Made by a program: the position numbers and the translations under genes | DNA from: Psychroserpens damuponensis | GTDB taxonomy: Bacteria > Bacteroidota > Bacteroidia > Flavobacteriales > Flavobacteriaceae | Reading direction: 5' to 3' | Length of the DNA: 64,000 nt | Assembly: GCF_000826655.1 (NCBI RefSeq) | Contig: NZ_JXJO01000019.1 | Location: 124,001 to 188,000 of the forward strand | Shown: one piece after another, positions 17,775-37,220 of the stretch | Layout of the letters: each line of letters opens with the position of its first letter | How positions within the stretch are numbered: the first letter of the stretch is position 1 | Notes under the pieces: generated by a model | What the model saw: only the letters and a program-made list of their open reading frames with translations | Database searches by the model: none | Told to the model about the DNA's origin: nothing

Positions 17775-17848
17775 GGCGAGGTAGCTCAGTTGGTTAGAGC
17801 GTTGGATTCATAACCCAGAGGTCACGAGTTCAAATCTCGTTCTCGCTA
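17775..17848 (+). tRNA. tRNA-Met (anticodon CAT), island integration site
   Basis: A 74-base cloverleaf: acceptor GGCGAGG/TCTCGCT with terminal G-U pairs, D-arm GCTC...GAGC, anticodon loop TTCATAA, T-arm ACGAG/CTCGT with TTCAAAT loop, discriminator A. CCA is not encoded. The pair closing the anticodon loop is A-C. A CAT anticodon could also be a lysidine-modified tRNA-Ile, but the body fits elongator Met. The 3' half is duplicated in degenerate form at 51675-51719. Confidence 0.93.
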
Positions 17849-17850
17849 CA
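17806..17850 (+). repeat. attL: 3' half of the tRNA gene
   Basis: This 45-base stretch matches 51675-51719 at 39 of 45 positions. It covers the anticodon loop to the tRNA 3' end and is the inferred recombination target of the neighbouring integrase. Confidence 0.8.
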
Positions 17851-17870
17851 ACTCTTAATTAGTTACAATC

Positions 17871-17902
17871 AAACGGTTTAGTTCACTCTAAACCGTTTTT
17901 TT
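17871..17902 (+). terminator. Terminator between tRNA and integrase
   Basis: AAACGGTTTAG (17871-17881) pairs with CTAAACCGTTT (17888-17898) around TTCACT and is followed by a T-run that ends at the integrase ATG (17903). It is island-borne, replacing the chromosomal tRNA terminator now found at 51724-51755. Confidence 0.85.
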
Positions 17903-19264
17903 ATGATTACATTTAACGACTTTATTACTAATGAACACGATTTAGAACACGATTCGGAACACGATTTGGCACACAAAAAAGATTTTTCACCTCCTAAAAT
18001 TTACAACGCGAATGGCGATTTAACTAAGCGTTGGTATGTTTATTTTTCTTATCGCGATCCTAAAAGCGGCAAACTTGTTCGTCAAAAAAATATTTATGGA
18101 ACGGCTAATTCCTTTAAAACAAAGGAAGATCGACTTGCTTTGCTCTCTCGTTATAGGAGACGATTATTAAAATTACTTCAGCAAGGTTTTAATCCAACTA
18201 TTGATAATACTGAATATTATCATTTTCAGTTAAATGAAAAGAAAAAAGCTGATACTTTGAACACGAAAGTGAACACAGCTCCAAAAAAGCCAGAAAAACA
18301 ACTAGAAAAGCGACTAGAAGAGCAACCAGAGACAACCGTTACTAGTGTTGAAGAAGTAGGCATGCCAACGAGAGAAGCTCTTGATTATAGTTTAAAAATT
18401 AAAGAAAAACAGATAAGTAGTAGATCATTGAAAGATTATGAGTACTCAACAAATAGTTTAGTAAAGTGGTTAGCAGACCATAGACCAAAAATTAAAACGA
18501 TACAACAGGTTGATAAAAAAGCTATGTTAGATTATTTAAATGCTGTTTTAATAAGATCGAGTGCTAGAAATCGAAATAATTACCGACTCAACCTGAGTAG
18601 CCTTTTTCAAACCTTAGAAGATAATGAAGTCATTAATTCTAATCCTGTTAAAAAGATTCCTGCGTTACGTAGTATTCCGAAGAGAAATAAATCATACACT
18701 AGTGAAGAGCATATCAAAATATTTAATTACTTAAAAAGTGAAGATCCTATCCTACTACTCTACATAAAATTTATAAGCTATAATTTATTACGACCTGTAG
18801 AAGTATGTAGGTTGAGAGTTAAAGATGTTAATATTAAGGACAAAACATTACAGTTTAAAGCAAAGAATAGTCCGTTGAAGATAAAACTCATTCCTAAAAT
18901 CATATTAGATGAGTTGCCAGATTTATCGAAATTAAAACCAGATGCATTTTTATTTACTCCAATAAAAATTGGTGGAGAATGGGACACTACAGATATTAAT
19001 AAAAGTAATTATTTCTCTAAACGTTTTAAAACTGTTGTGAAGGATCACTTTAAATTAGATAAAGATCAAACCTTATATAGTTTTAGACATACTTTCATTA
19101 CAATCTTATACCAATCTCTTGTAAAAAACTCAACACCTCATGCTGCGAAAAGTGAATTGATGGGAATTACTGGACATTCTACAATGACTGCATTAGAAAA
19201 GTATTTAAGAGATATTGACGCTGTTTTACCTAAGGATTATTCTAAACATTTGAATCATGACTAA
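17903..19264 (+). CDS. Tyrosine recombinase / site-specific integrase
   Basis: 453 residues. An N-terminal arm-binding-like region (WYVYFSYRDPKSGKLVRQKN, about 35-60), a SAM-like core-binding domain (about 160-260) and the catalytic domain (from about 270). Catalytic residues: Arg in LLRPVEVCRLR, R/H in YSFRHTF, His in TGHSTM and the nucleophile Tyr in ALEKYLRDI. The N-terminal EHDLEHDSEHDLAHKK run is the translation of DNA iterons. It starts at the T-run of a terminator and its last 8 bases overlap the next gene. It should integrate and excise the island at the tRNA. Confidence 0.93.
   Translation: MITFNDFITNEHDLEHDSEHDLAHKKDFSPPKIYNANGDLTKRWYVYFSYRDPKSGKLVRQKNIYGTANSFKTKEDRLALLSRYRRRLLKLLQQGFNPTIDNTEYYHFQLNEKKKADTLNTKVNTAPKKPEKQLEKRLEEQPETTVTSVEEVGMPTREALDYSLKIKEKQISSRSLKDYEYSTNSLVKWLADHRPKIKTIQQVDKKAMLDYLNAVLIRSSARNRNNYRLNLSSLFQTLEDNEVINSNPVKKIPALRSIPKRNKSYTSEEHIKIFNYLKSEDPILLLYIKFISYNLLRPVEVCRLRVKDVNIKDKTLQFKAKNSPLKIKLIPKIILDELPDLSKLKPDAFLFTPIKIGGEWDTTDINKSNYFSKRFKTVVKDHFKLDKDQTLYSFRHTFITILYQSLVKNSTPHAAKSELMGITGHSTMTALEKYLRDIDAVLPKDYSKHLNHD
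17933..17980 (+). repeat. 12-base iterons, left cluster (inside integrase 5' end)
   Basis: Four units in phase: GAACACGATTTA, GAACACGATTCG, GAACACGATTTG and degenerate GCACACAAAAAA. The same units recur at 18259-18282, 46137-46148 and 51574-51621. Their position near both ends suits arm-type sites for the recombinase. Confidence 0.75.
18259..18282 (+). repeat. 12-base iterons, second left cluster
   Basis: GAACACGAAAGT followed by GAACACAGCTCC, in the integrase coding region. The first resembles GAACACGAAACT and the second GAACACAGCGAA, the outer units of the right-end cluster. Confidence 0.65.
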
Positions 19265-20841: not shown

Positions 20842-20875
20842 TTGTTCTGTCGCTTTTATATCCTCAATAAGTCAT

Positions 20876-21517: not shown

Positions 21518-21521
21518 TACT

Positions 21522-21662
21522 TTATTTAGTTTTAGAATTTCTTGCCGCAGCACTTGTTGCTCTGGCTGCAAATGAACCCTTAGAAACTGATCCGTTCCCT
21601 GATTTTGCCGTTGCACTTGTAATTCTTGAGGCAGCGCTTGTTGTCATTTTTGATTTACTCAT
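21522..21662 (-). CDS. Small Ser/Ala/Thr-rich protein (seed-maturation-protein-like)
   Basis: 46 residues from the ATG at 21662 (an upstream ATG at 21716 gives an unlikely 18-residue extension). The sequence starts MSKSKMTTSAASRITSA and continues with SVSKGSFAARATSAAARN, a pattern reminiscent of plant SMP-type repeats and of small proteins I associate with bacterial genomic islands. The overlapping frame on the same strand is less protein-like. Function unknown. Confidence 0.6.
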   Translation of the reverse strand: MSKSKMTTSAASRITSATAKSGNGSVSKGSFAARATSAAARNSKTK

Positions 21663-21794
21663 TTTATTATAATTTAAAAGTTTATAAGGCAAATTTATAT
21701 TAGTTAAATTATACATTTCTAGATATTGACGTTTTGTAAGATATTTAGAACTTTTACAATGTAATTTGTATGAAAACTATCCTTTATTCTTGAC

Positions 21795-24700
21795 TTATTT
21801 ATACTTCTTAAAATTCTCTGCCTGTTCAAAAATTTCTTTAAAAACCTCATCTTTTGTAATTGGAGGATACCCATTTTCTGCTAGCAGAATTATTAAGTCT
21901 ACTTTTAGTTCTGCCTTGATATCATCCCGTTGGTTCCAGTCTGTGTATTTTGTTTTATCATCTACTACTTTTTTCACTTCTTTAGCCAAGTGAATTAATT
22001 TTTCTTCTGGATAATCAAAATCATATTTATGCGCAATGGCTTTTAGTATATCATAGAATGCTTTTTCTTCAAAGTTAATACCCATATCTTGAAATGATTC
22101 TTTTTCTTTTCTCATTTCATGATACAAGTCTATAATCTCGTCTGTAAAATCTTCAAGCACGTTACTTTGCAATATATCCTGCTCACTGCGCTCATTATAT
22201 TTATCGACTATACTTTTAAACTTTTTAGAGAAGTCAACCCCTTGCATTTTATTGGTTTTCTTTAGCGCATCAATAGCTTTTAATAATAACTGTTGTAGTA
22301 ATTTAATTTTGGTGTTTGGCAGTTTAATTTTTTCAATTTTTGCCAAATAGGCTTCATCAAAAATATCTATTTCTGTTTGTTGGTCATCGCCCAATTTAAA
22401 AATCTCTTCTACACCATCGCTTAACAAGGCTTCTTTAATCATTTCACGCACTCTTGCGTTCATTTGTGCTGTATCTGGCGCATTACCTTTTGTAAGTTTA
22501 AAAACGATAGAACGAATGGCTAAATAAAAGTGAATATGGTCTTTTTGAAGCTCTGTAAATGCATTGGCACCACAACAAATATCATAAGCTGCTTTTAAGC
22601 GTTTTACAATATTCATAAAACGTGTTTCTATATTTTTTGTACGCTGTACAAACTCTGCTCCTTTATTTAAGCACTCTAATTGTTTACTGCCTTCTCCTGA
22701 AAAATAATTGGTAGCATCAAATTTATGAAACAATCTAGCCAGCAAATCTAATTGGTCTTTAACCACTACAATGGAAGTTTGAATGTCTTCAAAATTCTGG
22801 CCATCTACAGCAGAATACTGCTTTAAGGCTAGATTCATTTGTTTTTTAAAGCCAATATAATCTACTACCAAACCTTTAGATTTAGACTTATACTTTCTGT
22901 TGACTCTAGAAATGGTTTGTATTAAATTATGTTGTTGTATGGGTTTGTCAATATACATGGTATCTAAAAATGGCACATCAAAACCAGTTAACCACATATC
23001 TACCACAATAGCAATTTTAAAATTAGACTTTTCGCTTTTAAATTGTCTATCTAATTCTTTTCTATCGTCTTTTGTACCCAGTAAATCGTACATTTCTTTT
23101 GGGTCGTCTTTACCACGCGTCATTATCATTTTAATGCGCTCCATAGGTTTTATCTCCTTTTTCTCTTTTTCGGTAAGTGTGGAGCCCTCTTCAAACGCTT
23201 TTACTTCTGCCCATTCTGGACGTAAAGCAATAATTTCTTTATATAAATGAAATGCTATGGGTCTAGAGCTACACACAAACAAGGATTTCCCTTTTAGGGT
23301 TGCGCCTTCTGTTATTCTGGTTTCATAATGTTTTACAAAATCTTCTGCAACTGCTTTTAAACGATCTGGATCGCCAATAATAGCGTTCATGTTAGCAGAC
23401 GCTTTTTTACTTTCTTCTATTTGATAATCATTAGCACCTTCCTCTGCGCACAATCTATAATACTCTTCTATTTCGTATAATTTCTTATTCTCTAATAACA
23501 CTTTAGCAGCTCTACCTTCATACACAATACGAACCGTAATTTCATCTTTTTCAGATTCTGTCATGGTGTAAGAATCGATGATATCTCCAAACACATTTAA
23601 TGTAGCATCAATTGGTGTACCTGTAAAACCAACATAAGTTGCATTTGGTAAGGAATCGTGCAAATATTTTGCAAAACCGTAGGTCTTTTTTACACCATCT
23701 TCGGTTACTGTAACTTTTTGGTCTAGGTTTATTTGGCTACGGTGTGCTTCGTCTGAAATACAAATAACATTTGTTCTATCGGTTAGTACATCTAAGTCTT
23801 CTGTAAATTTGTGTATGGTAGTTAAAAATACGCCACCACTTTTACGGTTTTGAAGCAATTCTTTTAATTCGCTTCTGCTTTGTACTCTAATAATATTATT
23901 ATCGCCAACATATTCTTTAGCATTCGTAAATTGCCCTGATAACTGGTCGTCTAAATCTGTACGGTCTGTAATAATTATAAGTGTTGGGCTTTTAAAATGT
24001 GGACTTCTCATTAAAAGTCTTGACAAAAACAACATGGTGTAACTTTTACCACAACCTGTAGCACCAAAGTAAGTACCTCCTTTACCATCTCCTTTTGGTT
24101 TTTGGTGTTGCTTTATATTTTCTAACAACTTTGTTGCTGCATAGTATTGCGGATAACGACAAACAATTTTTAACTCGTGTTTGTTAGAATCTGGAAAGTA
24201 TATAAAGTTATGTATTACCTCACGAAGTCTGTTTTTATTAAACAAACCTTGTATCATGGTGTACATACTATTTATACCATCTACTTCCTTGTCTACACCC
24301 AATACTTTACGCCATGCATAATAAAACTCGTAGTTAGAAAAAAACGAGCCCATTTTACTGTTAACACCATCACTAATCACGCAAAATGCATTGTATTTAA
24401 AAAGCTCTGGAATATCGCGTCTGTACCGTGTGGTTAATTGCACATAGGCATCATGTATGGTTGTATTTTCACGTATTGCTGTTTTAAACTCAAAGACTAC
24501 TAAAGGTAAACCATTTATGTACAAAATACCATCTGGAATACGCTTTTCGTACCCATAAATTTCTAATTGGTTTACTATTTTGTAAGTGTTGTTATCTAAC
24601 TTGGAATAATCTACAAGATGAATATATAAGTCTTTTTTAGAACGGTCTTCTCGCTCTAACTGAAAGCCATTACATACCAATTTCATGATTTGTTTGTTAG

Positions 24701-24935
24701 ATTCATATAGATCAGAAGCACTAAAAACTTCTAACTTTCTAATGATACTTTGTATCTCATTATCGGTTAGGTTATCGCTTTCATATTGGCTTTGTAAATA
24801 GTTCTTTATATCGGCTTTTATAAGTACTTCACTATCACCACGAACAATGGTATTTCCTAACACATGAGGAATCCTTTCGTTACCTAATAACTCTATAAAA
24901 ACGTTTTCTAATTGTGCTTCTGTGAATTTGCTCAT
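21795..24935 (-). CDS. hsdR: Type I restriction endonuclease subunit R
   Basis: 1046 residues, normal HsdR size. The N-terminal nuclease domain has the PD-(D/E)XK core (PDGILYINGLPLVVFEFKT, about 133-151). The SF2 translocase follows with Walker A GATGCGKS (about 291-298), DEAH near 393 and the VGFTGTP block; the C-terminal helical part binds HsdM. It cuts unmodified DNA after ATP-driven translocation. It is the last gene of an eight-gene operon, separated from hsdM/hsdS by about 6.4 kb of accessory genes. Confidence 0.96.
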   Translation of the reverse strand: MSKFTEAQLENVFIELLGNERIPHVLGNTIVRGDSEVLIKADIKNYLQSQYESDNLTDNEIQSIIRKLEVFSASDLYESNKQIMKLVCNGFQLEREDRSKKDLYIHLVDYSKLDNNTYKIVNQLEIYGYEKRIPDGILYINGLPLVVFEFKTAIRENTTIHDAYVQLTTRYRRDIPELFKYNAFCVISDGVNSKMGSFFSNYEFYYAWRKVLGVDKEVDGINSMYTMIQGLFNKNRLREVIHNFIYFPDSNKHELKIVCRYPQYYAATKLLENIKQHQKPKGDGKGGTYFGATGCGKSYTMLFLSRLLMRSPHFKSPTLIIITDRTDLDDQLSGQFTNAKEYVGDNNIIRVQSRSELKELLQNRKSGGVFLTTIHKFTEDLDVLTDRTNVICISDEAHRSQINLDQKVTVTEDGVKKTYGFAKYLHDSLPNATYVGFTGTPIDATLNVFGDIIDSYTMTESEKDEITVRIVYEGRAAKVLLENKKLYEIEEYYRLCAEEGANDYQIEESKKASANMNAIIGDPDRLKAVAEDFVKHYETRITEGATLKGKSLFVCSSRPIAFHLYKEIIALRPEWAEVKAFEEGSTLTEKEKKEIKPMERIKMIMTRGKDDPKEMYDLLGTKDDRKELDRQFKSEKSNFKIAIVVDMWLTGFDVPFLDTMYIDKPIQQHNLIQTISRVNRKYKSKSKGLVVDYIGFKKQMNLALKQYSAVDGQNFEDIQTSIVVVKDQLDLLARLFHKFDATNYFSGEGSKQLECLNKGAEFVQRTKNIETRFMNIVKRLKAAYDICCGANAFTELQKDHIHFYLAIRSIVFKLTKGNAPDTAQMNARVREMIKEALLSDGVEEIFKLGDDQQTEIDIFDEAYLAKIEKIKLPNTKIKLLQQLLLKAIDALKKTNKMQGVDFSKKFKSIVDKYNERSEQDILQSNVLEDFTDEIIDLYHEMRKEKESFQDMGINFEEKAFYDILKAIAHKYDFDYPEEKLIHLAKEVKKVVDDKTKYTDWNQRDDIKAELKVDLIILLAENGYPPITKDEVFKEIFEQAENFKKYK

Positions 24936-24951
24936 TTTAACTATAACTAAC

Positions 24952-25974
24952 TTAGTTCTCTAAATATAACTCTTTTGTAGAAGTTATATGAGGCTCTTTA
25001 ATTTCTCTAAAATCTATTTCTTGTTCTAACACAATTGCTGCTATGCTTATTAAGACATTTATTCCATGTGTGCTATCTGGGTTTTTAATTCCTAAATACA
25101 TCTGCTCAGACCAAGAACTTCCAACCTCAACATTTGCTGCTATAATATTTTCTCTTGTACCAATAGGAAAATGCCTAAAAGCTCCTTTATTTAAAAAAAT
25201 ACTATTATTAGTATGATCTAATAAATACACATCACAATAATTTGCTCCTGGAGGATTACCCAATTGTTCAATTGCAAATCCTAAAGTTCCAGTTTCATCA
25301 ATTAATTTACTTAAATCTGCAACTAAATTAATTTGACTCGATGTACTTTCTACTTTTGTATTATCTCTAAAAGAAGATACTGTATAATACCATTTTAAAG
25401 TATTAATAGGTAAATTAAAAGGTAAAACTACTCTAGATTTTCCGCCTTTAAACATGGCATTAGAACCACTATTCACATAGAAATGTTGGTTTGTATGAAT
25501 ATCTTTCACCTTGTAAGCTTCGCTTTTAACAAAGCGTTCTTGTCTTGTTGTATAAGTCGTATCTGTTAATGTACGTTCTTTAACTGTTGTATTAAATGAA
25601 ATTAAACCTTCCGTTGCAGGAATTCTATCTATTTTAAATTTACAAATACGTCTTGCTAATGACGAGTTTTCAAAATTAAAAATATAGATCCCTGTTTGCT
25701 TTATGGTTATCTCTTTTTCTTCTATTTTAATGATATTAAACTCTGAGTAAACTTTAGAGGCACGATACTCTAAAACTTCAAAGTTTTTTAACTTTTTCCC
25801 TCTTTCTTCGGAATAACTAATAATTATTTTATCTCCTTCTGCAAAACCATACATCATTTGATATGTTGACATGGCTGTCATTCTAAAATTTAAATCCACC
25901 ACATTTATGGGATTTGTTTCTGCTTTTAATTGGATTGAAAATGTAAGTAATAATAGTAGGTAAATTTGTTTCAT
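24952..25974 (-). CDS. Secreted protein of unknown function inside the RM operon
   Basis: 340 residues with a clear Sec signal peptide (about 1-18, MKQIYLLLLLTFSIQLKAE). The N-terminal half is beta-rich and its TGIYIFNFENSS segment recalls GOLD/emp24-like beta-sandwiches, a weak resemblance. No catalytic motif. It lies 18 bases after the DUF262 gene and 16 before hsdR, so it is co-transcribed with cytoplasmic restriction genes, which is odd. The product should act in the periplasm or outside the cell. Confidence 0.8.
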   Translation of the reverse strand: MKQIYLLLLLTFSIQLKAETNPINVVDLNFRMTAMSTYQMMYGFAEGDKIIISYSEERGKKLKNFEVLEYRASKVYSEFNIIKIEEKEITIKQTGIYIFNFENSSLARRICKFKIDRIPATEGLISFNTTVKERTLTDTTYTTRQERFVKSEAYKVKDIHTNQHFYVNSGSNAMFKGGKSRVVLPFNLPINTLKWYYTVSSFRDNTKVESTSSQINLVADLSKLIDETGTLGFAIEQLGNPPGANYCDVYLLDHTNNSIFLNKGAFRHFPIGTRENIIAANVEVGSSWSEQMYLGIKNPDSTHGINVLISIAAIVLEQEIDFREIKEPHITSTKELYLEN

Positions 25975-25992
25975 CTTTTATATTTTAAAGCC

Positions 25993-28491
25993 TTAATTTA
26001 ATTTAGAAATAGAATCCTTTATTGCGTTTTCAAATTTGGGTAAATTATTAATGATAAACTCATTCATTTTCCCCCAATCATTAGGTTCAAATAAATTAAC
26101 ATCTTGCAGTTCAAATTTAATACGGCTCATTTTATGTTCTAAAAATTCTTGCCAAACTAATGGTTTACCAAAAGTATTCTCAATTAACTCTTTATCTTTT
26201 AGTAACTGATTAAAATAGTTCTTATTTCTTTCTTTGTTAGATGAAGATATATTTAATTCGACTCTTACATACGTACCTGTGACGGCTAACAAATAGGATA
26301 AACCACTAATTCCCGCACCTGCGCCTATCCAATTATCTTTTGATGGGCTAATATTCTCAAAAAGCGTGGTGTCTTTTATAAGCGGTAACACTTGTTGCCA
26401 ATACTTTTTTCTAATAGAAAAACGACTTGGTTCTGTATCTTCACTTTTATATCTTACGATTAGCTCATCTTCAAGTTCAAACAAAGTCAATAATCGTTTT
26501 AAGATATTAAATTTTGTTCTGCTATCAATATTATACTCCACATAATAACCATTTAGTATTTCGCCTGATGCTCTAAAATCATCTGGGTTTCTAGTTATTT
26601 TTAATACATCTTGGTTATTAAGAAGAAGCTGCGTATTTTTTTTGTACAAACTTTTTATAACATAATAATACATGTTAGCAATAACATTTTCTTCAATCTT
26701 ATTGTCTTCAAAAATAAAATAGTCTAAGTTTTTATTTGTTGGACTCTCAGCTACAAAAATATTTTGCTCTACTGTAGTGTTGATATCTGGTATTTCCGCT
26801 TTTGGATATTCCCAAATCTTTAAAAACCTATTATAGATAATTTCAAAACGCACTTTATATTCTGCAATATTCCAGTTGTCTAGTGTTTTCAAATGAGCGT
26901 TTAACCACAATCTACTAAATTGGTAGCCTTGTTCTCCTCCATTCTTATTCATGTCTTTTTTCTCTAAAAAGACTTTATTGCTTAACGCTCCGTTATTGCC
27001 AGACAATGTTAAGTTGGCAATAGTATTTAATCGTTTTTCTTTAAAGGTAAAGTAATCTTCTTGTGAGAGTGATACACTCCAATCTTCATGTGGGTTTCTT
27101 GGAAAAATATGTTCTATTGTAATGTTTTCGTTAGAGGTATCTACATATTCGCGATTGTTAAAATTCTCAATCATTTCGAACATGTAATTTCTATTCTTTG
27201 CTTGAATGTTATATAAGTCTCTATCCTTTAAAGCGGTTCTTAAATCTTCATCTGTTGGGAATTTAGAACTTCCTCTTTTCTTAATTAATGAAATTTCTAT
27301 AGAGTTATAATAATCTTCAACATCTACATCTGCATACAACGCCATAAAGATTTTGTTTAATGCACTTGTAGGTAATCCCACAATAAATCTTCGCCAGGTA
27401 TAGCTTTGTATAAGCTTTAGTATTTTAATTAGCTCTTGCTTCTCTATAATACCGTTTTCCTTGTCTTCAAACACTTGAAGCAAAAACGGAAATGCTACAT
27501 TTATTTCTAATCTACTTATATATTCTAATTCTTTTCTAAGGTTAGCATCTGCAACATGGCTTGGGTTTATAAAACGTTTATAATGCGCAGATAATGATTT
27601 TATATTTTCTAATTCTTGTTGATAGGCTTCATCTTTCTTGTTTTGATAAAGCTTTTTAAACTCTGCATATACCTTATTTTTGTTAGGTATCTTTTTGTTT
27701 TTTAAAGTCAAATAATCTCTAATATAATCTGAAACCATAGACTTTTGCTTTACTAAGTCTTTGGCATTTTCTTCTATAGGGTTCCATATTTGCTCAAACA
27801 CACGGTTTTGGTCTTTGGGCTCTAAATCCATTAGAATAAAATTTCTAATTAAATCGGATTGTGATAACTCTAAACCTGTAGAGTTAAGACTCTCAAAAAT
27901 ACGTTGTGGATCGTCTTTATCTCTTTCTAAAGAAATCTCAACAAATATTAAGCGTTTTAAACCATTTTTAATAATCTCAAAAGTGTCTTTTGTAATTATG
28001 GTTCTAAAGAAATTATAATTTTCAATCACATTAGAATAACCACCAAATTCGTTTTCTGTAGCATTCATTATGGCTTTAAAGGCTAATGAGTTTTGGTCTG
28101 TTTGTTTTAATTTTAACTTGCTCGATTCTTGCTCTACATATTGGTTGGTTAAATACCAATTATAAAGTCTTTCAGCATCGCCTCTTAGGTTATTTTCCTT
28201 CGCAAACCTGTACAAAGCAACATATAGAATATTAATTGTAGTTAAACGTTGTTGACCATCTATTATTACCAATTCTTTTACTTCACTTGTACTATAAACA
28301 CCTTCATGAATGAATACAATACTACCAATAAAATGTGTACCTCTTTGGTCTGATTCTACAGCAATAATATCGTTAATTAACTCTTTACACTCCTTTGTAC
28401 TCCAGTCGTAATTACGTTGATATACTGGTATTACAAACTGTACATTAGATGCTTGTAAAAACTTATTAATTGGTTCTTCGGTTGCTTTCAT
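25993..28491 (-). CDS. DUF262-DUF1524-DUF4268 protein (GmrSD-like)
   Basis: 832 residues with three domains. DUF262 (ParB/Srx-like, about 1-230) has YQRNYDW and the nucleotide-handling DGQQR (78-82). DUF1524 (His-Me finger nuclease, about 440-560) has TIEHIFPRNP with His near 461 and a downstream NTIANLTLSG. The C-terminal region (about 670-830) resembles DUF4268. GmrSD proteins are NTP-dependent type IV enzymes that cut modified phage DNA. It is 15 bases from the preceding gene, so cells would carry cutting activity for unmodified (type I) and possibly modified (type IV) DNA in one operon. Confidence 0.9.
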   Translation of the reverse strand: MKATEEPINKFLQASNVQFVIPVYQRNYDWSTKECKELINDIIAVESDQRGTHFIGSIVFIHEGVYSTSEVKELVIIDGQQRLTTINILYVALYRFAKENNLRGDAERLYNWYLTNQYVEQESSKLKLKQTDQNSLAFKAIMNATENEFGGYSNVIENYNFFRTIITKDTFEIIKNGLKRLIFVEISLERDKDDPQRIFESLNSTGLELSQSDLIRNFILMDLEPKDQNRVFEQIWNPIEENAKDLVKQKSMVSDYIRDYLTLKNKKIPNKNKVYAEFKKLYQNKKDEAYQQELENIKSLSAHYKRFINPSHVADANLRKELEYISRLEINVAFPFLLQVFEDKENGIIEKQELIKILKLIQSYTWRRFIVGLPTSALNKIFMALYADVDVEDYYNSIEISLIKKRGSSKFPTDEDLRTALKDRDLYNIQAKNRNYMFEMIENFNNREYVDTSNENITIEHIFPRNPHEDWSVSLSQEDYFTFKEKRLNTIANLTLSGNNGALSNKVFLEKKDMNKNGGEQGYQFSRLWLNAHLKTLDNWNIAEYKVRFEIIYNRFLKIWEYPKAEIPDINTTVEQNIFVAESPTNKNLDYFIFEDNKIEENVIANMYYYVIKSLYKKNTQLLLNNQDVLKITRNPDDFRASGEILNGYYVEYNIDSRTKFNILKRLLTLFELEDELIVRYKSEDTEPSRFSIRKKYWQQVLPLIKDTTLFENISPSKDNWIGAGAGISGLSYLLAVTGTYVRVELNISSSNKERNKNYFNQLLKDKELIENTFGKPLVWQEFLEHKMSRIKFELQDVNLFEPNDWGKMNEFIINNLPKFENAIKDSISKLN

Positions 28492-28506
28492 TGGTTATAG
28501 CGTGTT

Positions 28507-29079
28507 TTATTTAATAGTCTTTTCTGGAATGTTTAACTCAATATTATAAGTTTTACAAAACGCTGAAAAATCTTGTAATTGTTTTAAAGCATCATCTTGT
28601 GTAAAGAATTTTTCTAAAGCATAATTCTTAAACACTAAAGTATTATCTTCTGAAGTACCTTCGCTTGCTTTTGTAGATGCTGTCATAGTATCAAAAGATT
28701 TATTCAAATCTCCTGCAACCAATATTAATTCTGTTTTTGAATCTTCAACTGCTTTAAACTGTTCAATTTCTAATGCATGTATTTTATTCTCCTCTGTAGA
28801 CTCGTAAAAACCAGAATCGTTTTTTAATATTACCGAAAATTGGATTGGGTTTTTATCGTCTTTACCTTCAAATCTAAAATCATAGCAATACATATATATC
28901 CAATCCCAAGCCCAATTATTTAAACTAGTACCTGCTTTAGAACTAAATAATGGTCTTCCTTTTTTATAGGGGAAATCATAGGTTTCACCAATAAACTTCA
29001 TTAAGTCTAATATTCGTCTTTGGTAATCATATAATAATCTGTACGCTTTACGGACTTCTAATGTTAAATTATCTTCCAT
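28507..29079 (-). CDS. Hypothetical protein coupled to a PD-(D/E)XK nuclease
   Basis: 190 residues with no domain I know. It begins with a long helix (KAYRLLYDYQRRILDLMKFIGE) followed by an aromatic-rich stretch (NNWAWDWIYMYCYDF, about 53-67). It overlaps the end of the nuclease gene by 11 bases, so the two are translationally coupled and may form a complex. No signal peptide or membrane segment. Confidence 0.8.
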   Translation of the reverse strand: MEDNLTLEVRKAYRLLYDYQRRILDLMKFIGETYDFPYKKGRPLFSSKAGTSLNNWAWDWIYMYCYDFRFEGKDDKNPIQFSVILKNDSGFYESTEENKIHALEIEQFKAVEDSKTELILVAGDLNKSFDTMTASTKASEGTSEDNTLVFKNYALEKFFTQDDALKQLQDFSAFCKTYNIELNIPEKTIK

Positions 29080-29752
29080 ACTTTTTTGTTTTAAAACTAT
29101 TTATGGCTTTAGTATTTATATTATAAATTTCACAATCTTGTAACCATAGTTTTTGATGAAAGCCATGCATGGCAAATGCATTAATTATATCCTCTAATAG
29201 AAACAAAGTAGGTTTCTGACTTGGTATGTTTTGCTCTAAGTAACTTTTATAAATACCATCTACACTTTTTAGTAAACTCGTCCAATTTGTTTTAGATTGT
29301 AATACTTTAATACCTGCAATATTAAATTCTTCTTTTACACAAGTATCAATCAATCCACCAACCTGTAACAAATACACGGTATTCTCTTTATCTTCATACT
29401 CATTTAAATACGCCTTAATTTCTTTTTTTAATTGACCATCCGACTGTTGATTACTGTCATTACGTTTGGCCTCTATAATTAAATCAAAATCTTTAAAACG
29501 CATAAACAAATCTGGCTCAACATATTTACTATTATTAGCATCATACTTTCCTTTTGCTTGCCATTTTGCCCAATACTGCATTTCTAAAACTTCACCACAA
29601 TAAGATGGTAATTGGTCTTGGTGTAAGGCTTGTTTTAAAATGTGCCAAAACAAATCTGTTGGTAAATATTTGAGTAAATCAAACACAGATGCTGTTAAAC
29701 TATCTTCGCAGATAGTTAAACTTCCCTTACCGTATTTGAAATAGGATATCAT
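29069..29752 (-). CDS. PD-(D/E)XK nuclease-like protein
   Basis: 227 residues. EPDLFMRFKDFDLIIEAK (79-96) gives the PD...ExK core with Pro80-Asp81 and Glu94/Lys96, followed by a strand (NTVYLLQVGG). The fold is that of restriction-type nucleases. Its start overlaps the stop of the reverse transcriptase gene (ATGA) and its end overlaps the next gene, so RT, nuclease and helical protein form one coupled block. A DNA- or cDNA-cutting role with the RT is inference. Confidence 0.82.
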   Translation of the reverse strand: MISYFKYGKGSLTICEDSLTASVFDLLKYLPTDLFWHILKQALHQDQLPSYCGEVLEMQYWAKWQAKGKYDANNSKYVEPDLFMRFKDFDLIIEAKRNDSNQQSDGQLKKEIKAYLNEYEDKENTVYLLQVGGLIDTCVKEEFNIAGIKVLQSKTNWTSLLKSVDGIYKSYLEQNIPSQKPTLFLLEDIINAFAMHGFHQKLWLQDCEIYNINTKAINSFKTKKYGR

Positions 29753-31347
29753 TTTTTACCAAATAGATTATTAATAGTTGGTAATATTATTGCTGGTAAG
29801 CAACCTCTACGAACTGGCACTAAAAATTTACTCCTAAAGTCTTCATCTATAAAAGACAACTTATCTAGTTTCATTTGTTTAAAATTATCTTTCAATTTAG
29901 TGTTAGGTAAAACTTCATAGATGAATAACCAGAATTTATCGAATTCAACTTTACTTAAATCCTCTGCTTTGGTTTTGAATACTCTTACTCCACCTCCTTG
30001 TTTTAACGTGTATAAATACAATAAAAGCATAGCCATACAATCTTCTCTATCTAAAATTTCAGTAGTATAATATTTATCTAATAAAATATCATATTTTAAA
30101 GCTAAAAAGAGCACATAACTTGTTGCTTCTGGAATATTTTTTTGAAAACTATAATCTAAAATATCATCTAAAAGTTCTTTAATTTGCGCTTTTGAATAAT
30201 TAAAAGGTTGCAATAAATACTCATCAACATAAGGCAATAAATATGGATATAATAATATTAAATGATGTAATCTTTTAAAATAAAATGTTCTTGCATGAGC
30301 GCCTAAATATTTACTTGAAATTATTTTAATAGCATAACTTAAAATTGCTGAATTTTCTTTTTCAGATTTCATTAAATCAAGCGTTAAATCTAAAAACGAA
30401 CGCAATTCTGCTATTTTTAAAACGTGCTTACCTTCTTTGGTTACTATTTCCGGGAAGTGAAAAGCTTTAAGTTTACGAAGCCAAGTTTCGGCTAATGAAA
30501 ATGGCAAAGTTAATATTTCAGATTTTTTATGATTTAGTGATAATTCAAACTTTTTTAATTCTATTGACAAATCAATAAAAAACTGTTCTGCATCGTTGTA
30601 TGTTTCTACATAACACGTATAATCATCGATGTATCTTGTAAAGCGATATCCTTTGTTCTCCATTTCTAAATCAATAGCCACTAGAACAATTTCTGATATT
30701 AAGTTTGAAGTATGAGGACCAATTAGAATTCCATTGGTTTCATTATTTTTAATTTTACGGCTTAATTCGTCGTATTTGTTAAACCATTCATTTTTAAAAG
30801 CAGGCTTCGATTTTAATTTTGCTTCTTTTTTGCCAACTAAAGCCCAAGAAATTGAATGTGAATAAATGCTAGGATAACAATTAGAAATATCTGCTTTTGC
30901 AATAAAATTACTTCTAATTAATAAATCATTTTCTGGAAAACCATCATCATCAAAATTTTTATAATTCATTTCGAATAATGAATGTTTGTCTATCATTTTT
31001 CTTAAATGAACTCTACTTACTTTATGCGTTTGGTTTTCTGTTTTGTCCTTAAAGTAATTTTGCGTTTTACTCCATTCTTTAGCAATAAACTGACATAAAA
31101 GAGCGTAACCAAAAGGATGAGGAATAGCCAACAAACGAGGAACATTAATGTTTCTCATATTTTCATAACTCACATAATCATAATTCCTTTTGGTATTAAA
31201 CACTGGTGTATTAGTTACAACATAGTCATAAAATGGCTTACTGGTTAAAAAAGGTGGTATTTTGTTAGGAAACAATCCATAACCTAGTAAACCTTCAAGA
31301 ATTTCAGCATCAATAAAATCTGTAATATGTTCGTGGTATGACTTCAT
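29749..31347 (-). CDS. Reverse transcriptase of the UG/Abi type, within a type I RM operon
   Basis: 532 residues. RT palm motifs: AKADISNCYPSIYSHS (motif A with an Asp), GILIGPHTSNLISEI (motif B), RYIDDYTCYV (motif C, YIDD at 239-242) and LSLNHKKSEIL (motif D). The region after about 310 is alpha-helical without thumb/X, endonuclease or maturase domains, as in Abi and unknown-group (UG) defence RTs. It starts four bases after hsdS and overlaps the nuclease gene, leaving no room for a retron RNA. I cannot assign a DRT subtype. Confidence 0.88.
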   Translation of the reverse strand: MKSYHEHITDFIDAEILEGLLGYGLFPNKIPPFLTSKPFYDYVVTNTPVFNTKRNYDYVSYENMRNINVPRLLAIPHPFGYALLCQFIAKEWSKTQNYFKDKTENQTHKVSRVHLRKMIDKHSLFEMNYKNFDDDGFPENDLLIRSNFIAKADISNCYPSIYSHSISWALVGKKEAKLKSKPAFKNEWFNKYDELSRKIKNNETNGILIGPHTSNLISEIVLVAIDLEMENKGYRFTRYIDDYTCYVETYNDAEQFFIDLSIELKKFELSLNHKKSEILTLPFSLAETWLRKLKAFHFPEIVTKEGKHVLKIAELRSFLDLTLDLMKSEKENSAILSYAIKIISSKYLGAHARTFYFKRLHHLILLYPYLLPYVDEYLLQPFNYSKAQIKELLDDILDYSFQKNIPEATSYVLFLALKYDILLDKYYTTEILDREDCMAMLLLYLYTLKQGGGVRVFKTKAEDLSKVEFDKFWLFIYEVLPNTKLKDNFKQMKLDKLSFIDEDFRSKFLVPVRRGCLPAIILPTINNLFGKK

Positions 31348-31351
31348 AATC

Positions 31352-32521
31352 TTAAACTACTTCTGTTTTAGTTTCTAGTCTTGACATTTTGGAAAGAAGT
31401 AGATTCAAAAGTACTTCCAGTTTAGAATTAATATTTGAATTTAATACTTTAAATGATTGTATTGAAGCAATTTTATTTTCAAAAAATTCAAGTATATCCT
31501 CATTTGGAATCTCTTTAGATATTTCGTGTATATCATTCCGATTTAAAGTAGGTACTGCTGAACCTGCTCCAAGTTCTTTTAAATTAATAGTTCTTAGAAA
31601 ATATAAAGAATAAAAAGGTGTAGCTTTTTTAAATTTTTTAATATAAAGACTTGTATTTAAAGGCCAACAAGGTTTATCGTAATAGAAAAGCTCACCTAAC
31701 GAACCACTTCTTCCTGTGATTATAGTTGGCTTATCAAACTTGAATTTATTATGATATTCTGCAATTCCTGTTGATGCAAAAATTGGATATTTCCCTTTAA
31801 TTCTCAATCGAGATGGTAAATCGTGACCTCTTTGAAAAGTAAACATATCACCTATGACACCTATTTCCCAACCCAAAGGAATCTCCAAATCCAATTCCTC
31901 ATTATAAACCATCTCACCACCAGAAGATTTATAAGGTTTACCTTCTGCATTAGGAAACTCAAAATCTACAAACCAATGTTTGTACAAGGCTTGTGCAGTC
32001 TCTTCTAATTTTTGGTTTAGGTTTTCGTTAAGTTTTATACGGTTGACAATGGTGTTGTATTCTGCTACTATTTCGTTTTGTTTTTCTATGGATGGGATTG
32101 GTAGTTCTACTTCTCCTAATTCGTCCCATTTAAAACCTCCTCTAATTGCACTATCGCATCTAAAATCTGCATATCTATCAAATTCAGGTCTTCTAAACCA
32201 CATCATTAAATATTCTGGATTTAGAATAGTTTCATCAATTACTTTAAAAACTGTGTAAGCAGGTGATACAATTATTAAATCATCACTATTTTGATGTACG
32301 ACAGGTAATCTGTGCACTCGAATAACTGACATAAAATCACAAGCAAAATGATTTTTAGGCACCAATTTATACTTGGATAAATCTACACCAACAATATTAG
32401 AAGTAGAATCTCTAAATTCTTTGGTCATACTTAACCCTTTAAGGTTAGTTGTTTCTAGATTCCTGTTTCTTATGTCAACTCTAGTTATGTAATCGCCAAG
32501 TAATTTATAATTTGATTTCAT
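31352..32521 (-). CDS. hsdS: Type I restriction-modification specificity subunit S
   Basis: 389 residues: two target-recognition domains (about 1-150 and 215-345) separated and closed by conserved helices (KQNEIVAEYNTIVNRIKLN ... ALYKHWFVDFEFP). The pattern is the usual HsdS layout at the short end of its size range. It sets the DNA sequence recognised by the complex. It overlaps hsdM by 17 bases and is followed after four bases by the RT gene. Confidence 0.95.
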   Translation of the reverse strand: MKSNYKLLGDYITRVDIRNRNLETTNLKGLSMTKEFRDSTSNIVGVDLSKYKLVPKNHFACDFMSVIRVHRLPVVHQNSDDLIIVSPAYTVFKVIDETILNPEYLMMWFRRPEFDRYADFRCDSAIRGGFKWDELGEVELPIPSIEKQNEIVAEYNTIVNRIKLNENLNQKLEETAQALYKHWFVDFEFPNAEGKPYKSSGGEMVYNEELDLEIPLGWEIGVIGDMFTFQRGHDLPSRLRIKGKYPIFASTGIAEYHNKFKFDKPTIITGRSGSLGELFYYDKPCWPLNTSLYIKKFKKATPFYSLYFLRTINLKELGAGSAVPTLNRNDIHEISKEIPNEDILEFFENKIASIQSFKVLNSNINSKLEVLLNLLLSKMSRLETKTEVV

Positions 32522-34070
32522 AACCTAAATTTTTAAACACGTTTAGTAATTCAGTTTTAGATTGTGCTTCTTCTTTTAACAAGTCTGCAAATTCCGTTTG
32601 TAAAATTTGCATCTTCTCCTCAAAATTGATGTTTTCGTCACGGTTTACAAACTCAATATATTTACTTGGCACAAGAGAATAGTCTTTTTTCTGAATTTCT
32701 TCAATAGAAGCCGAATAACAATATTCTGGTATATCTTTATATTCTTTTTCATTTTGCTGCCAATCGTGATAAGTTTCACTAGCTCTTTTAATTTCATATT
32801 GAGAAAACTGAATGTATTTTTTTTCAAAAGGAATACCAACCTGTCTTAAATCCATAAATAGAATTTCGTCTTCTCGGTTTCGGTAGTTTTTTTCAACATT
32901 GTTAAGCTTTACTTGACGCTCTTTTTTATTGTTGTTAATAATCCAAAGGGTTACCGAAATATCTGTGGTATAAAACAAGTTACGTGGTAGGATTAAAATA
33001 GCTTCCACCAATTTATTTTCGATCAGTTTTTTACGAATGTCGTATTCGGTTCCGCCACCAGATAAAGCACCATTGGCCAATATAAAACCAGCCACTCCGT
33101 TTTCTGAGAGTTTAGAGACCATATTCAATATCCAACCGTAATTGGCGTTACCTGTTTGTGGTACCTCGTAACCTCGCCAACGTGGATCGTCTAATAACTC
33201 ATCTGAGGCTCTCCATGCTTTTTGGTTAAATGGTGGATTTGCCATTATGTAATCTGCCTTTAAATCTGGGTGTTGGTCTTTGGCAAAGGTGTCTGCTGGT
33301 ACATCGCCTAAATTGGCAGATATACCACGAATGGCAAGGTTCATTTTTGCAAGCTTGTAAGTGGTAGCTGTGTATTCTTGCCCATAAATAGAAACGTCTT
33401 TTTTGTTACCGTTGTGGCTGTCTATAAATTTCATAGACTGTACAAACATACCACCAGAACCACAGGCTGGATCGTAAATTTTACCTTTGTAAGGTTCTAT
33501 AAGTTCAGCAATAAGGTTAACGATGCTTTTTGGGGTGTAGAATTCGCCTTTACCCTTACCCTCTGCTATGGCAAACTTGCTTAAAAAATACTCGTACACG
33601 CGACCAACTATATCTTGTTGTTGGTCTTTTAGCGTGTCTATATTGTTAATGGTATCTAGTAAAGCAGCTAGTTTACTCACGTCCATATTTAGGCGTGAAA
33701 AGTAATTGTCTGGTAAGGCACCTTTAAGCGATGGATTGTTTTTTTCTACGGTGTATAAAGCGGTATCTATTTTTAGTGCAATATCGTCTTGTTTGGCATT
33801 GGCAATAATGTAGCTCCAACGGGATTCCTCAGTTAAGTAGAATACATTATTTTGAGCGTAAAATTCTACCATGTCGATAAACTTTTCTTTACCATCATCA
33901 ATTAATTCTTGACGACGCTTTTGGAATTTATCGCTGGCGAACTTTAGGAATATTAAACCGAGTACAACGTGTTTGTATTCTGAGGATTCTACGGTACCGC
34001 GAAGTTTATTTGCCGAGTCCCATAGGGTTTCTTCTATGGATTTTGTTTTTTTTGTGGTTTTTTTGGCCAT
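32505..34070 (-). CDS. hsdM: Type I restriction-modification N6-adenine methyltransferase subunit M
   Basis: 521 residues from the ATG at 34070 (MAKKTTKKTK); an upstream ATG at 34121 adds 17 unlikely residues. The HsdM helical N-domain (SIEETLWDSANKLRG ... YKHVVLGLIFLKFASDKF) is followed by the SAM motif DPACGSGGMF and the catalytic NPPF (YIMANPPFNQKAW). It methylates adenines in the HsdS target. First RM gene of the operon; the PH-domain gene lies 59 bases upstream. Confidence 0.96.
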   Translation of the reverse strand: MAKKTTKKTKSIEETLWDSANKLRGTVESSEYKHVVLGLIFLKFASDKFQKRRQELIDDGKEKFIDMVEFYAQNNVFYLTEESRWSYIIANAKQDDIALKIDTALYTVEKNNPSLKGALPDNYFSRLNMDVSKLAALLDTINNIDTLKDQQQDIVGRVYEYFLSKFAIAEGKGKGEFYTPKSIVNLIAELIEPYKGKIYDPACGSGGMFVQSMKFIDSHNGNKKDVSIYGQEYTATTYKLAKMNLAIRGISANLGDVPADTFAKDQHPDLKADYIMANPPFNQKAWRASDELLDDPRWRGYEVPQTGNANYGWILNMVSKLSENGVAGFILANGALSGGGTEYDIRKKLIENKLVEAILILPRNLFYTTDISVTLWIINNNKKERQVKLNNVEKNYRNREDEILFMDLRQVGIPFEKKYIQFSQYEIKRASETYHDWQQNEKEYKDIPEYCYSASIEEIQKKDYSLVPSKYIEFVNRDENINFEEKMQILQTEFADLLKEEAQSKTELLNVFKNLGYEIKL

Positions 34071-34129
34071 TAAGTGTATTTTTTGAACTTTAAAAATAGG
34101 TTTAATTATAATGTTGTTCAAGTAATGTA

Positions 34130-34507
34130 CTACATTACTTTTTCAGCCAAATATTTCTGTACTTCGTAAACATCAATACTCTTATTAAACTTTTTACTTA
34201 CCGATGGGATGTCTTCGCTTGAAATCCATATTTTTAATTCGGCATCTAGATCGAAAGTACCTGATGTTTCTAAAGAGAAACGAGAAATACTTTTATAGGG
34301 CATTGACTTATATTCTACTTTACTGCCCGTAATTCCTTGCACATCGATTAATATTAAGCGTTTGTTGGTAAACATAAACACATCTCTAAAAAGTTTGAAG
34401 CCTAATTCTATTTGTTCGTTAGCGGTTAATAATCGTGCATATTTTGTAGTTAATTGTTCGGTAGAGGCTTGGCTTGCGTTACCTAATATTTTATTTAGTA
34501 GTCCCAT
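34130..34507 (-). CDS. Bacterial PH-domain protein
   Basis: 125 residues: an N-terminal helix (MGLLNKILGNASQAS) and a PH-like fold of the bPH family (RDVFMFTNKRLILIDVQG ... YKSMPYKSISRFSLE), ending in a helix. Such proteins bind membranes or partner proteins. The gene precedes hsdM on the same strand and follows the secreted-protein gene by 13 bases. A decayed copy lies at 37371-37595 on the other side of hipBA. Confidence 0.85.
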   Translation of the reverse strand: MGLLNKILGNASQASTEQLTTKYARLLTANEQIELGFKLFRDVFMFTNKRLILIDVQGITGSKVEYKSMPYKSISRFSLETSGTFDLDAELKIWISSEDIPSVSKKFNKSIDVYEVQKYLAEKVM

Positions 34508-34520
34508 TTCTAATTATATT

Positions 34521-35240: not shown

Positions 35241-35299
35241 TGTAAAGTTTTAATTAATGCATAAGGCTTGAACTACTTCTAAAAGAAGTAATTAAACAG

Positions 35300-35536: not shown

Positions 35537-35550
35537 ATTAAGTTATTTTT

Positions 35551-35619
35551 TAAATTTGTATCACAAAAAGGACATTATATGCATTTATTTGCTTTATTGA
35601 CCTGTTTATAGTACATTTG
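35551..35619 (+). promoter_or_regulatory. Candidate promoters of hipBA
   Basis: Two -7 matches: TAAATTTG at 35551-35558, with a weak -33, and TTTG (35588-35591) - 20 bases - TACATTTG (35612-35619), a full match. The second would start transcription at about the ATG (35623), giving a leaderless message; the first leaves a leader of about 58 bases. Confidence 0.5.
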
Positions 35620-35622
35620 AGT

Positions 35623-35937
35623 ATGGAAGATAAATATTACGGTTATTCCGATAAAGAGTTAATACGAAAATGGGGAGAAAAACTTAGCTCATTACGTGTA
35701 AAGGCTGGATTATCTCAAACTGAATTAGCCCAAAAAACTGGTATGAGTAGAAGTTCTATAGCAGGTATTGAAAAAGGGAGGAATTTCTCGATAGCTTCAC
35801 TAATTTCAATTTCTCGATCACTTGAATTATTGGATGAATTTGAATTCTTTCTAAAAAATGAAGCGTATGAATTAACTCCCATGGAAATTTATGAAAAAGA
35901 AAAAAAGAAGAGAAAAAGAGGAGGATATAAAAAATGA
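35623..35937 (+). CDS. hipB: HipB-type antitoxin, XRE family regulator
   Basis: 104 residues from the ATG at 35623 (a TTG six bases upstream is also in frame). An XRE helix-turn-helix (KLSSLRVKAGLSQTELAQKTGMSRSSIAGIEKG, about 18-50) and a very basic tail. It should neutralise HipA and repress its own operon. The stop overlaps the hipA ATG (ATGA), a typical antitoxin-toxin arrangement. Confidence 0.9.
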   Translation: MEDKYYGYSDKELIRKWGEKLSSLRVKAGLSQTELAQKTGMSRSSIAGIEKGRNFSIASLISISRSLELLDEFEFFLKNEAYELTPMEIYEKEKKKRKRGGYKK

Positions 35938-37220
35938 ATCTATTAGAAGTAATTATCTGGAAAAACCTTGTAGGCGTACTTATTTGGAATGAAACAAAAA
36001 AAACAAGCACTTTTGAATACGCAAATAGTTTTATTCGAAGTGAAATTGAATTGTCTCCCATAATAAACCCTACATCAAAGAAAATAATCTCTTCTGTTCA
36101 AAAACTAGAGTATTCTAGTGACGGTAGTTTAGTATTTAACACAAATAAAGGGCTTCCTCTCTTTATATCAGATTCATTACCTGATAAATTTGGTACTGAA
36201 TTATTCTCAAAATATCTCGAGAAAGAAGGTAGGAACTATAGAGATCTTTCACCTATAGAAAAATTAGCTTATATAGGAAATAGAGGAATGGGAGCACTTG
36301 AATTTAAACCTGCTAAACATAAACAAACGCGTACTAAAATATTAAACTTAAAAAAACTAAATGAACTTTCAATATCACTGCTAAAAAATGAACCTGTTGC
36401 TAATATTGATGATATGGCAAACCTTTTCCATATAGGAACATCTCCTGGAGGAGCTCAACCAAAAGTTTTAATTAATATTGATAAGAAGACAGGTGACATT
36501 TATAGAGGTGACAACTTACCTTCAAAGAATCAAGATAGTTGGATTTTAAAATTCAATAGAGATATAGGTTTAGACTCTGATAAAGAAAGAGGTAAAATCG
36601 AATATGCATATTACCTCATGGCAAAAGAATCTAAAATTATCATTATGGATTCAGAATTAAAGGAATTTGAAAATGATTATTACTTTATGACCAAAAGATT
36701 TGATCGCATTGATGGACGCAAACTTCATACTCAGACTTTACACGCATTTGCTGGTATGAATTTCAAATTGCCCAACACTTATTCTTATGAACAAATATTT
36801 ACCATATTAAATAAAATGAAATTAGACTATTCTTCAAAAGAACAATTATTTAAAATAATGGTTTTCAATGTAATTGGTCGAAATGTAGATGACCATACTA
36901 AAAATTTCGGATTTAATATGAAAGAAAATGGAGAATGGAATTTATCTCCAGCATATGATTTAACATTTAGTTATAACGAAAACTTTAATAGAATTACGCC
37001 ACATTTTCTCTCGATAAATGGTAAAAATAAAGACTTTACCTTAAATGACATTCTTCATGTAGCAGAAGAGTATTCTATCAAAAATCCAAAAAGAATAATT
37101 AATGAAATAAATCAAAGTTTTCTCAATTGGAGAAAAATTGCGAAAGATTTAAATATTTCAAAAAAGACCACTGATTATATAGCCAGTAAATTAAAAACCA
37201 TTCCATATAAAGTAAAATAA
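35934..37220 (+). CDS. hipA: HipA-type serine/threonine kinase toxin
   Basis: 428 residues. N-terminal HipA couple domain (about 1-110), the Gly-rich GTSPGGAQPKVL loop near 164-175, the catalytic-loop NVIGRNVDDHTKNFGF near 310-325 and the DFG-like SPAYDLTFSY after it. HipA toxins phosphorylate aminoacyl-tRNA synthetases or related targets and slow growth. All kinase blocks are present, so it is probably active. It serves either island stability or phage-induced dormancy. Confidence 0.93.
   Translation: MNLLEVIIWKNLVGVLIWNETKKTSTFEYANSFIRSEIELSPIINPTSKKIISSVQKLEYSSDGSLVFNTNKGLPLFISDSLPDKFGTELFSKYLEKEGRNYRDLSPIEKLAYIGNRGMGALEFKPAKHKQTRTKILNLKKLNELSISLLKNEPVANIDDMANLFHIGTSPGGAQPKVLINIDKKTGDIYRGDNLPSKNQDSWILKFNRDIGLDSDKERGKIEYAYYLMAKESKIIIMDSELKEFENDYYFMTKRFDRIDGRKLHTQTLHAFAGMNFKLPNTYSYEQIFTILNKMKLDYSSKEQLFKIMVFNVIGRNVDDHTKNFGFNMKENGEWNLSPAYDLTFSYNENFNRITPHFLSINGKNKDFTLNDILHVAEEYSIKNPKRIINEINQSFLNWRKIAKDLNISKKTTDYIASKLKTIPYKVK

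Follow-up and report, generated by a model that had tools for sequence, protein, structure and literature searches.

Does a reverse transcriptase (RT) encoded within the body of a type I restriction-modification (RM) operon form a defence system with the nuclease gene that it overlaps, or are the two separate items of cargo? The question is raised by an eight-gene hsd operon of Psychroserpens damuponensis (Flavobacteriaceae), which lies in a stretch of 64,000 nucleotides (assembly GCF_000826655.1, contig NZ_JXJO01000019.1, positions 124,001 to 188,000 of the forward strand). This whole stretch is called the window below, and its own numbering is used throughout. A sequence-only reading of the operon had proposed an RT with its own nuclease and, as a plausible role, a second, abortive layer that acts when restriction is inhibited. 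We consider it very probable that the operon is a type I RM system with a slot that carries several separately acting defences. This view is built on the gene content, the intact catalytic motifs, the modular borders of the slot, the differing cargo of related operons, and the independent occurrence of the RT and the nuclease pair.

The gap between hsdS and hsdR in related operons

The genes run in the order hsdM, hsdS, RT, nuclease, a 190 amino acid (aa) protein, a GmrSD/DUF4268 protein, a secreted-type protein, and hsdR. As had been claimed, all eight are open reading frames (ORFs) on the minus strand, and neighbouring genes either overlap or lie no more than 18 bp apart (Table 1). HsdM, HsdS, and HsdR form a complete type I set in one cluster, and their catalytic motifs are present (by eye, DPACGSGG and NPPF in HsdM; GCGKS, DEAH, and PD...EFK in HsdR).

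Using the window's HsdR as a query, we found matches at E<=1e-100 in 43 of the 299 genomes of our family sample, and 24 matches had at least 60 per cent identity. Besides the window and locus L046 (such numbers are our own handles), slots were examined at 20 of these 24 HsdR loci; G146 and G022 were omitted due to contig edges, and in L054, at the end of its contig, no hsdS match was found. At least one ORF lay between hsdS and hsdR in 19 of the 21 readable slots, counting the window and L046, and only L064 and L066 had none. L001, which was found through the nuclease, is a further cargo-bearing locus beyond the twenty-one. Outside the window the slots held sixty-eight ORFs, of which we chose twenty-six by eye as likely defence genes for a PADLOC scan; twenty-three of them matched (limits 1e-20, 1e-10, and 1e-3). 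The cargo identified in this way includes Gabija (GajA and GajB) in L053 (3.7e-214 and 1.7e-222) and L057, a four-gene cyclic oligonucleotide-based antiphage signalling system (CBASS; effector, cyclase, E1/E2, and JAB) in L068, AbiEi/ii in L049, ThsB in L050, SIR2-HerA in L060, OLD-like proteins in L001 and L058, an AbiU-like protein in L046, a PifA-like protein in L067, and a weak KwaA/KwaB match in L063.

The HsdR proteins of L049 and L050 are 94 and 93 per cent identical to that of the window, and their cargo is wholly different. Nucleotide homology to L050 breaks at the end of hsdS, the last ~47 bases of which are kept, and resumes at 24940; in L049 it resumes at 24936, so that in both cases it returns at or next to the start of hsdR. 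Against L001, homology resumes at the start of the nuclease gene (29752), ends at 28484, and resumes again at the hsdR start (24935). Judged by the slot census and by these sequence borders, the gap between hsdS and hsdR is an exchangeable cargo slot. The operon itself is also variable within the genus, since the two same-genus genomes of the sample had no HsdR match at E<=1e-100.

Table 1. Features of the hsd operon and of its surroundings, in window coordinates
Feature	Position	Strand	Evidence
hsdM, type I N6-adenine methyltransferase subunit	32505..34070	-	Pfam N6_Mtase 5.3e-100, HsdM_N 1.8e-22; PADLOC MTase_I 1.5e-146
hsdS, type I specificity subunit; left slot border	31352..32521	-	PADLOC Specificity_I 3.4e-70
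Drt4-like (UG15-type) RT, 532 aa, YIDD intact	29749..31347	-	PADLOC Drt4 2.7e-196
PDC-M15A, PD-(D/E)XK nuclease by motif, 227 aa	29069..29752	-	PADLOC PDC-M15A 8.8e-74
PDC-M15B, 190 aa, predicted alpha/beta	28507..29079	-	PADLOC PDC-M15B 1.1e-55
GmrSD_N + GmrSD_C + DUF4268 protein, 832 aa, type IV-like restriction candidate	25993..28491	-	Pfam, PADLOC
340 aa protein, signal-peptide-like N-terminus (by eye)	24952..25974	-	no family match at E<=0.1
hsdR, type I endonuclease/translocase; right slot border	21795..24935	-	NCBIfam TIGR00348, 469 bits (cut-off 284.55)
Cargo slot, hsdS to hsdR	24936..31351	-	slot census and homology breakpoints
Bacterial PH-domain gene	34130..34507	-	
453 aa integrase-like ORF	17775..19264	+	phage-integrase match below threshold, at 24.9 bits (cut-off 27.1)
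HTH gene overlapping HipA gene	35617..37220	+	HipA_C 3e-43

Within the operon, hsdM and hsdS overlap by 17 bp and the RT follows hsdS after 4 bp (from the coordinates). The RT and nuclease genes share the four bases ATGA, the nuclease and 190 aa genes overlap by 11 bp, and the remaining gaps down to hsdR are 15, 18, and 16 bp. In the program-made ORF list, hsdM begins with a TTG codon (34121). Homology to L001 begins at 34070, where the ATG of L001's own hsdM also falls, so the ATG at 34070 is the likely start and the operon end proposed from the sequence is retained. All eight terminator-like hairpins in positions 20500-35700 lie on the plus strand and none on the strand of the operon; chance alone would give 5.8 (standard deviation 2.4) over the two strands, so this absence is weak evidence for co-transcription.

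A Drt4-like reverse transcriptase

The best PADLOC profile for the RT is Drt4 (PDLC02178; 651.5 bits, E=2.7e-196, residues 1-505), well ahead of Drt6 (288.2 bits, 3.3e-86) and then UG30 (206.6 bits) among the best 25 of 52 families. A family search of the protein confirmed an RVT_1 match, and a PDB chain labelled UG15, which we take to be the same class as Drt4, matches at 5.2e-58. The catalytic motifs are intact (YIDD, and ADISNCY as motif A), and D153, D241, and D242 are invariant in all six aligned relatives. With its full-length profile match and these motifs, the protein resembles Drt4 by far the most among the classes of defence-associated RT (DRT). It differs in its place inside a type I RM operon, in an extra C-terminal tail, and in its score of 424.9 bits against the NCBIfam equivalog model NF041749, which is below the cut-off of 450. 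Due to this last result we call it Drt4-like on sequence grounds and not a Drt4 equivalent. The UG/Abi-type RT that had been recognized between hsdS and hsdR is thus confirmed, and it belongs to a known DRT class or lies beside one.

Matches to the Drt4 profile were found in 39 of the 299 family genomes at 0.001, and in four (own included) at 1e-50 or better. Seven of the 395 genomes in our phylum sample (again including this one) matched at 1e-50, while fourteen named genomes used as a control gave three matches at 0.001 and none at 1e-50. Searches with the RT also returned 211 plasmid records, of which the best (L102) was opened, and nine phage records, none covering 80 per cent of the query. 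L102 is a Pseudoalteromonas match whose record carries no annotation.

We followed sixteen Drt4-family loci (the window, L046-L048, L069-L074, L076-L080, and L102). Five of these are viral contigs, one is the best plasmid record, and the rest are the genome matches that reached 1e-50. Across all of these loci, several being on short contigs, no shared RT neighbour was evident by eye, and hsd genes were recognisable at two of the sixteen. The closest relative compared (L046, 48 per cent identical) is encoded in an operon with the order hsdM, hsdS, AbiU-like, RT, hsdR, where the RT is last in the slot; in the window it is first, and the nuclease pair is absent from L046.

The M15A-M15B nuclease pair

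The two genes after the RT match the candidate defence system PDC-M15, with both genes present, in the same order and overlapping, and no difference in gene content was seen; what is particular to the window locus is the neighbouring RT. PDC candidates stem from a 'guilt-by-embedding' approach, according to the accessible text of PMC12988326, and a literature search under the name PDC-M15 found no experiment on the pair. The predicted PD-(D/E)XK nuclease and its coupling to a 190-residue protein both hold up. The motif PD-x(12)-ExK of M15A (P80 D81 ... E94 K96) is invariant in seven of seven aligned sequences. The best structural match of the M15A model is McrC of McrBC (E=2.4e-4); since the model is of low confidence (predicted local distance difference test, pLDDT, 62.6), the nuclease assignment leans on the motif rather than on this match. 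M15B had been described as helical, whereas its model predicts one long helix together with beta-strands (mean pLDDT 69.7). At that confidence it found no PDB fold match at E<=0.001, and we dropped its assignment to a known fold.

M15B lies directly downstream of M15A at all eleven full-length loci (the window, L001, L040-L043, L045, L075, L081, L103, and L104). The pair is located between hsdS and hsdR in the window, in L001, and in L104, a Vibrio rumoiensis plasmid with the order hsdM, hsdS, Fic, M15A, M15B, hsdR. It adjoins hsdM-like genes in L041 and L042, the latter also having an hsdR-like gene, and no hsd gene was recognised near it in L040, L043, L045, or the conjugative plasmid L103. 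L075 and L081 are contigs from a viral collection. The M15A profile matched six of the 299 family genomes (own included, and one being the partial match in L044), two of the 395 in the phylum sample (own included), and none of the fourteen control genomes; a tblastn search matched two of 72,556 plasmid records. L044, a partial 25-bit match in a 448 aa frame without M15B, was left out of the counts, as was a match in L068 (0.00058) that proved to be the CBASS cyclase.

In a separate observation, the pair in L075 (7956-9303, plus strand) is flanked by ORFs resembling, by eye, terminase and portal genes, so phages may carry M15A-M15B.

One system or two

A Drt4-type RT was found near M15A-M15B at one of the eleven loci, the window, and the pair near an RT at one of the sixteen Drt4-family loci. 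The nuclease therefore occurs with M15B at all eleven loci and without such an RT nearby at ten of them, and the RT without the pair at fifteen loci, some of these on short contigs. In L001 the place of the RT beside M15A-M15B is taken by a 172 aa ORF together with an OLD-like ATPase, and on the conjugative plasmid L103 the pair stands apart from both the RT and any recognised hsd gene.

The ATGA overlap between RT and nuclease, which had been read as coupling, is present as described. It is built on the C-terminal ~27 residues of the RT, which are missing from its two closest aligned relatives, L046 and L069 (504 aa each). Because of this tail and the separate occurrence of the partners, the RT appears to be coupled to the nuclease only locally, and the coupling of M15A and M15B is constant. 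We dropped the idea of an RT with its own nuclease, as neither partner retains the other at the further loci followed. Among the genomes searched, the block of RT and pair was found in this one only. The sequence-only interpretation is thus partly supported, and the findings that it had itself named as telling against it (a known class for the RT, a block confined to one genome) were in part obtained.

Relation to described systems

Extra genes between the specificity and restriction genes of type I operons are known from Campylobacter, where R-linked ORFs (rlo genes) lie between hsdR and hsdS (PMC5183652). The host group is different, and no RT is named as rlo cargo in the accessible part of that paper. 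Separate defence systems within type I RM loci are described in the available text of three further sources: DarTG2, which occupies exactly the hsdS-hsdR gap of a type I RM island in enteropathogenic Escherichia coli (PMC12255303); TgvAB, embedded in the RM cluster of Vibrio VPI-2 (PMC11411939); and PrrC, embedded in the type IC RM locus EcoprrI and triggered by inhibition of RM (PMC12707154). These resemble the window in having a separate system within a type I operon and differ in their cargo; the window holds several units together, and an RT is among them. An association of UG/Abi-type RTs with RM is likewise on record, as AbiA shares an operon with RM genes and an RM locus seems to include AbiK of pSRQ800 (PMC8934634). 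These are other RT classes, and the accessible part of the source does not state a position between hsdS and hsdR.

A literature search, mostly without subscription papers, found no report of a Drt4 RT between hsdS and hsdR. Within the literature searched, the earlier statement that this is not a described system holds for the exact gene set. It does not hold for the placing of defence genes between hsdS and hsdR. Both the parts and their arrangement belong to kinds already known, so we see the operon as an instructive example and not as a new system.

How the cargo may act

As we picture it, the slot would contain at least three separate defence units, namely the Drt4-like RT, M15A-M15B, and a GmrSD-type modification-dependent nuclease with DUF4268, with the secreted-type protein as a fourth item, and the units are probably expressed from the RM transcript. 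HsdMSR would cut unmethylated phage DNA, and the GmrSD-type protein would cut modified DNA that escapes HsdR. The RT would make template-free single-stranded DNA that becomes toxic once a phage protein shields it, so that the cell is stopped, and M15A-M15B would cut nucleic acid upon some trigger. The role of the RT in this scheme follows reviews of Drt4, according to which this system consists of one gene and its product synthesizes random single-stranded DNA without a template; during infection this DNA is shielded from exonucleases by a phage DNA-binding protein, which triggers Drt4 (PMC13213688, PMC13314766). It is possible that slot defences sense RM failure, and an embedded abortive second layer is plausible, as Drt4 and PrrC are both described as abortive in the accessible parts of the reviews.

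A closer dependence on the RM complex can be imagined, in which the embedded RT, with or without M15A-M15B, is kept silent by that complex until a phage inhibits restriction, and is then activated. The model for this is PrrC, which the window RT resembles in being encoded within a type I RM operon, and which, in the available text, is triggered by inhibition of its type IC host locus (PMC12707154). A Drt4-like RT is moreover found twice in the hsdS-hsdR slot, in operons whose HsdR proteins are 73 per cent identical. Nevertheless, fourteen of the sixteen Drt4-family loci have no hsd gene recognisable by similarity to those of the window. Many of the slot's systems are known elsewhere without RM, and a slot that accepts them weakens the idea of a dedicated guardian. 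The reviews, as far as accessible, also have Drt4 as a single gene with a phage protein as its trigger, and overall we regard such a guardian role as unlikely.

The RT, M15A, and M15B might also work as one system, with co-translated M15A degrading the random DNA of the RT until a phage blocks it, or being guided by that DNA. This would fit the four-base ATGA overlap and the account, in one review (PMC13213688), of a phage protein that shields Drt4 DNA against exonucleases in infected cells. The block was found at this locus only, however, with one RT near eleven M15A-M15B loci and one pair near sixteen Drt4 loci, and the overlap depends on a tail missing from the two closest aligned relatives, so we find a single system highly improbable. 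A further speculation, which we judge very unlikely, is that the slot is selected for systems that act when HsdMSR fails; the RT and the McrC-like nuclease pair would be a two-step backup, the pair sensing or removing the DNA of the RT until a phage interferes, and cargo co-transcribed with HsdR would be wired to the RM complex.

Several points weigh against a slot of separately acting defences. The single slot ORF of L065 does not look defence-like by eye. The RT is below the NF041749 cut-off and may differ biochemically from characterised Drt4, and the expression, activity, and triggers of the slot genes are what we infer. The followed RT loci stop at 1e-50, with weaker RT matches outside the count; neighbours were identified through their likeness to proteins of the window, a procedure that may overlook hsd or nuclease genes that have diverged, and several of the RT contigs are short (L069 of 8.1 kb, L071 of 5.9 kb, and L080 cut inside the RT). 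Finally, independent occurrence elsewhere is compatible with cooperation of the RT and M15A-M15B in the window.

Other genes of the slots and their surroundings

The 832 aa protein combines the Pfam domains GmrSD_N (2.8e-36), GmrSD_C (1.3e-16), and DUF4268 (8.1e-32), and its PADLOC matches are Orf5 (1.6e-128) and HEC-06 (1e-52). The 340 aa protein had no family match at E<=0.1 in Pfam, PADLOC, or NCBIfam and no match in viral contigs. Relatives were found in 17 of the 299 family genomes (own included), and eight of the twelve neighbourhoods read share a common chromosomal setting with no evident defence genes (by eye). In L099 (7817-10346, minus strand) a relative directly adjoins a weak KwaA/KwaB (Kiwa-like) pair.

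Two protein families recur among the slots. Small proteins of 169-178 aa are found in L001, L050, L051, and L053, the L001 copy having no PADLOC match at 1e-10. A family of 437-504 aa (AlbA_2-like by eye; 149 aa in L062) is found in L051, L055, L059, L060, L061, and L062, and adjoins hsdR several times.

The PH-domain gene is directly upstream of hsdM. Homology to L049 spans this gene, the whole of hsdM and part of hsdS without a break, so the PH-domain gene may be mobile together with the operon. Further upstream and on the opposite strand, a helix-turn-helix (HTH) gene overlaps a HipA gene, a pair that by its layout resembles a HipBA-like toxin-antitoxin. On the other side of the operon, the integrase-like ORF begins 54 bp after a tRNA-Met gene, and because of this position the hsd operon may sit on an island. 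A search for an attachment site found no exact copy of at least 14 bases of the 3' half of tRNA-Met and the following bases in the window.

Implications

These results show a Drt4-like RT and M15A-M15B as cargo of type I RM operons. One hsd lineage of Flavobacteriaceae-type genomes keeps its hsdS-hsdR slot open to complete defence systems that are unrelated to one another, and this slot is a ready place to seek new defence genes. The operon of P. damuponensis is a natural setting in which to test whether embedded systems act as backups for one another.

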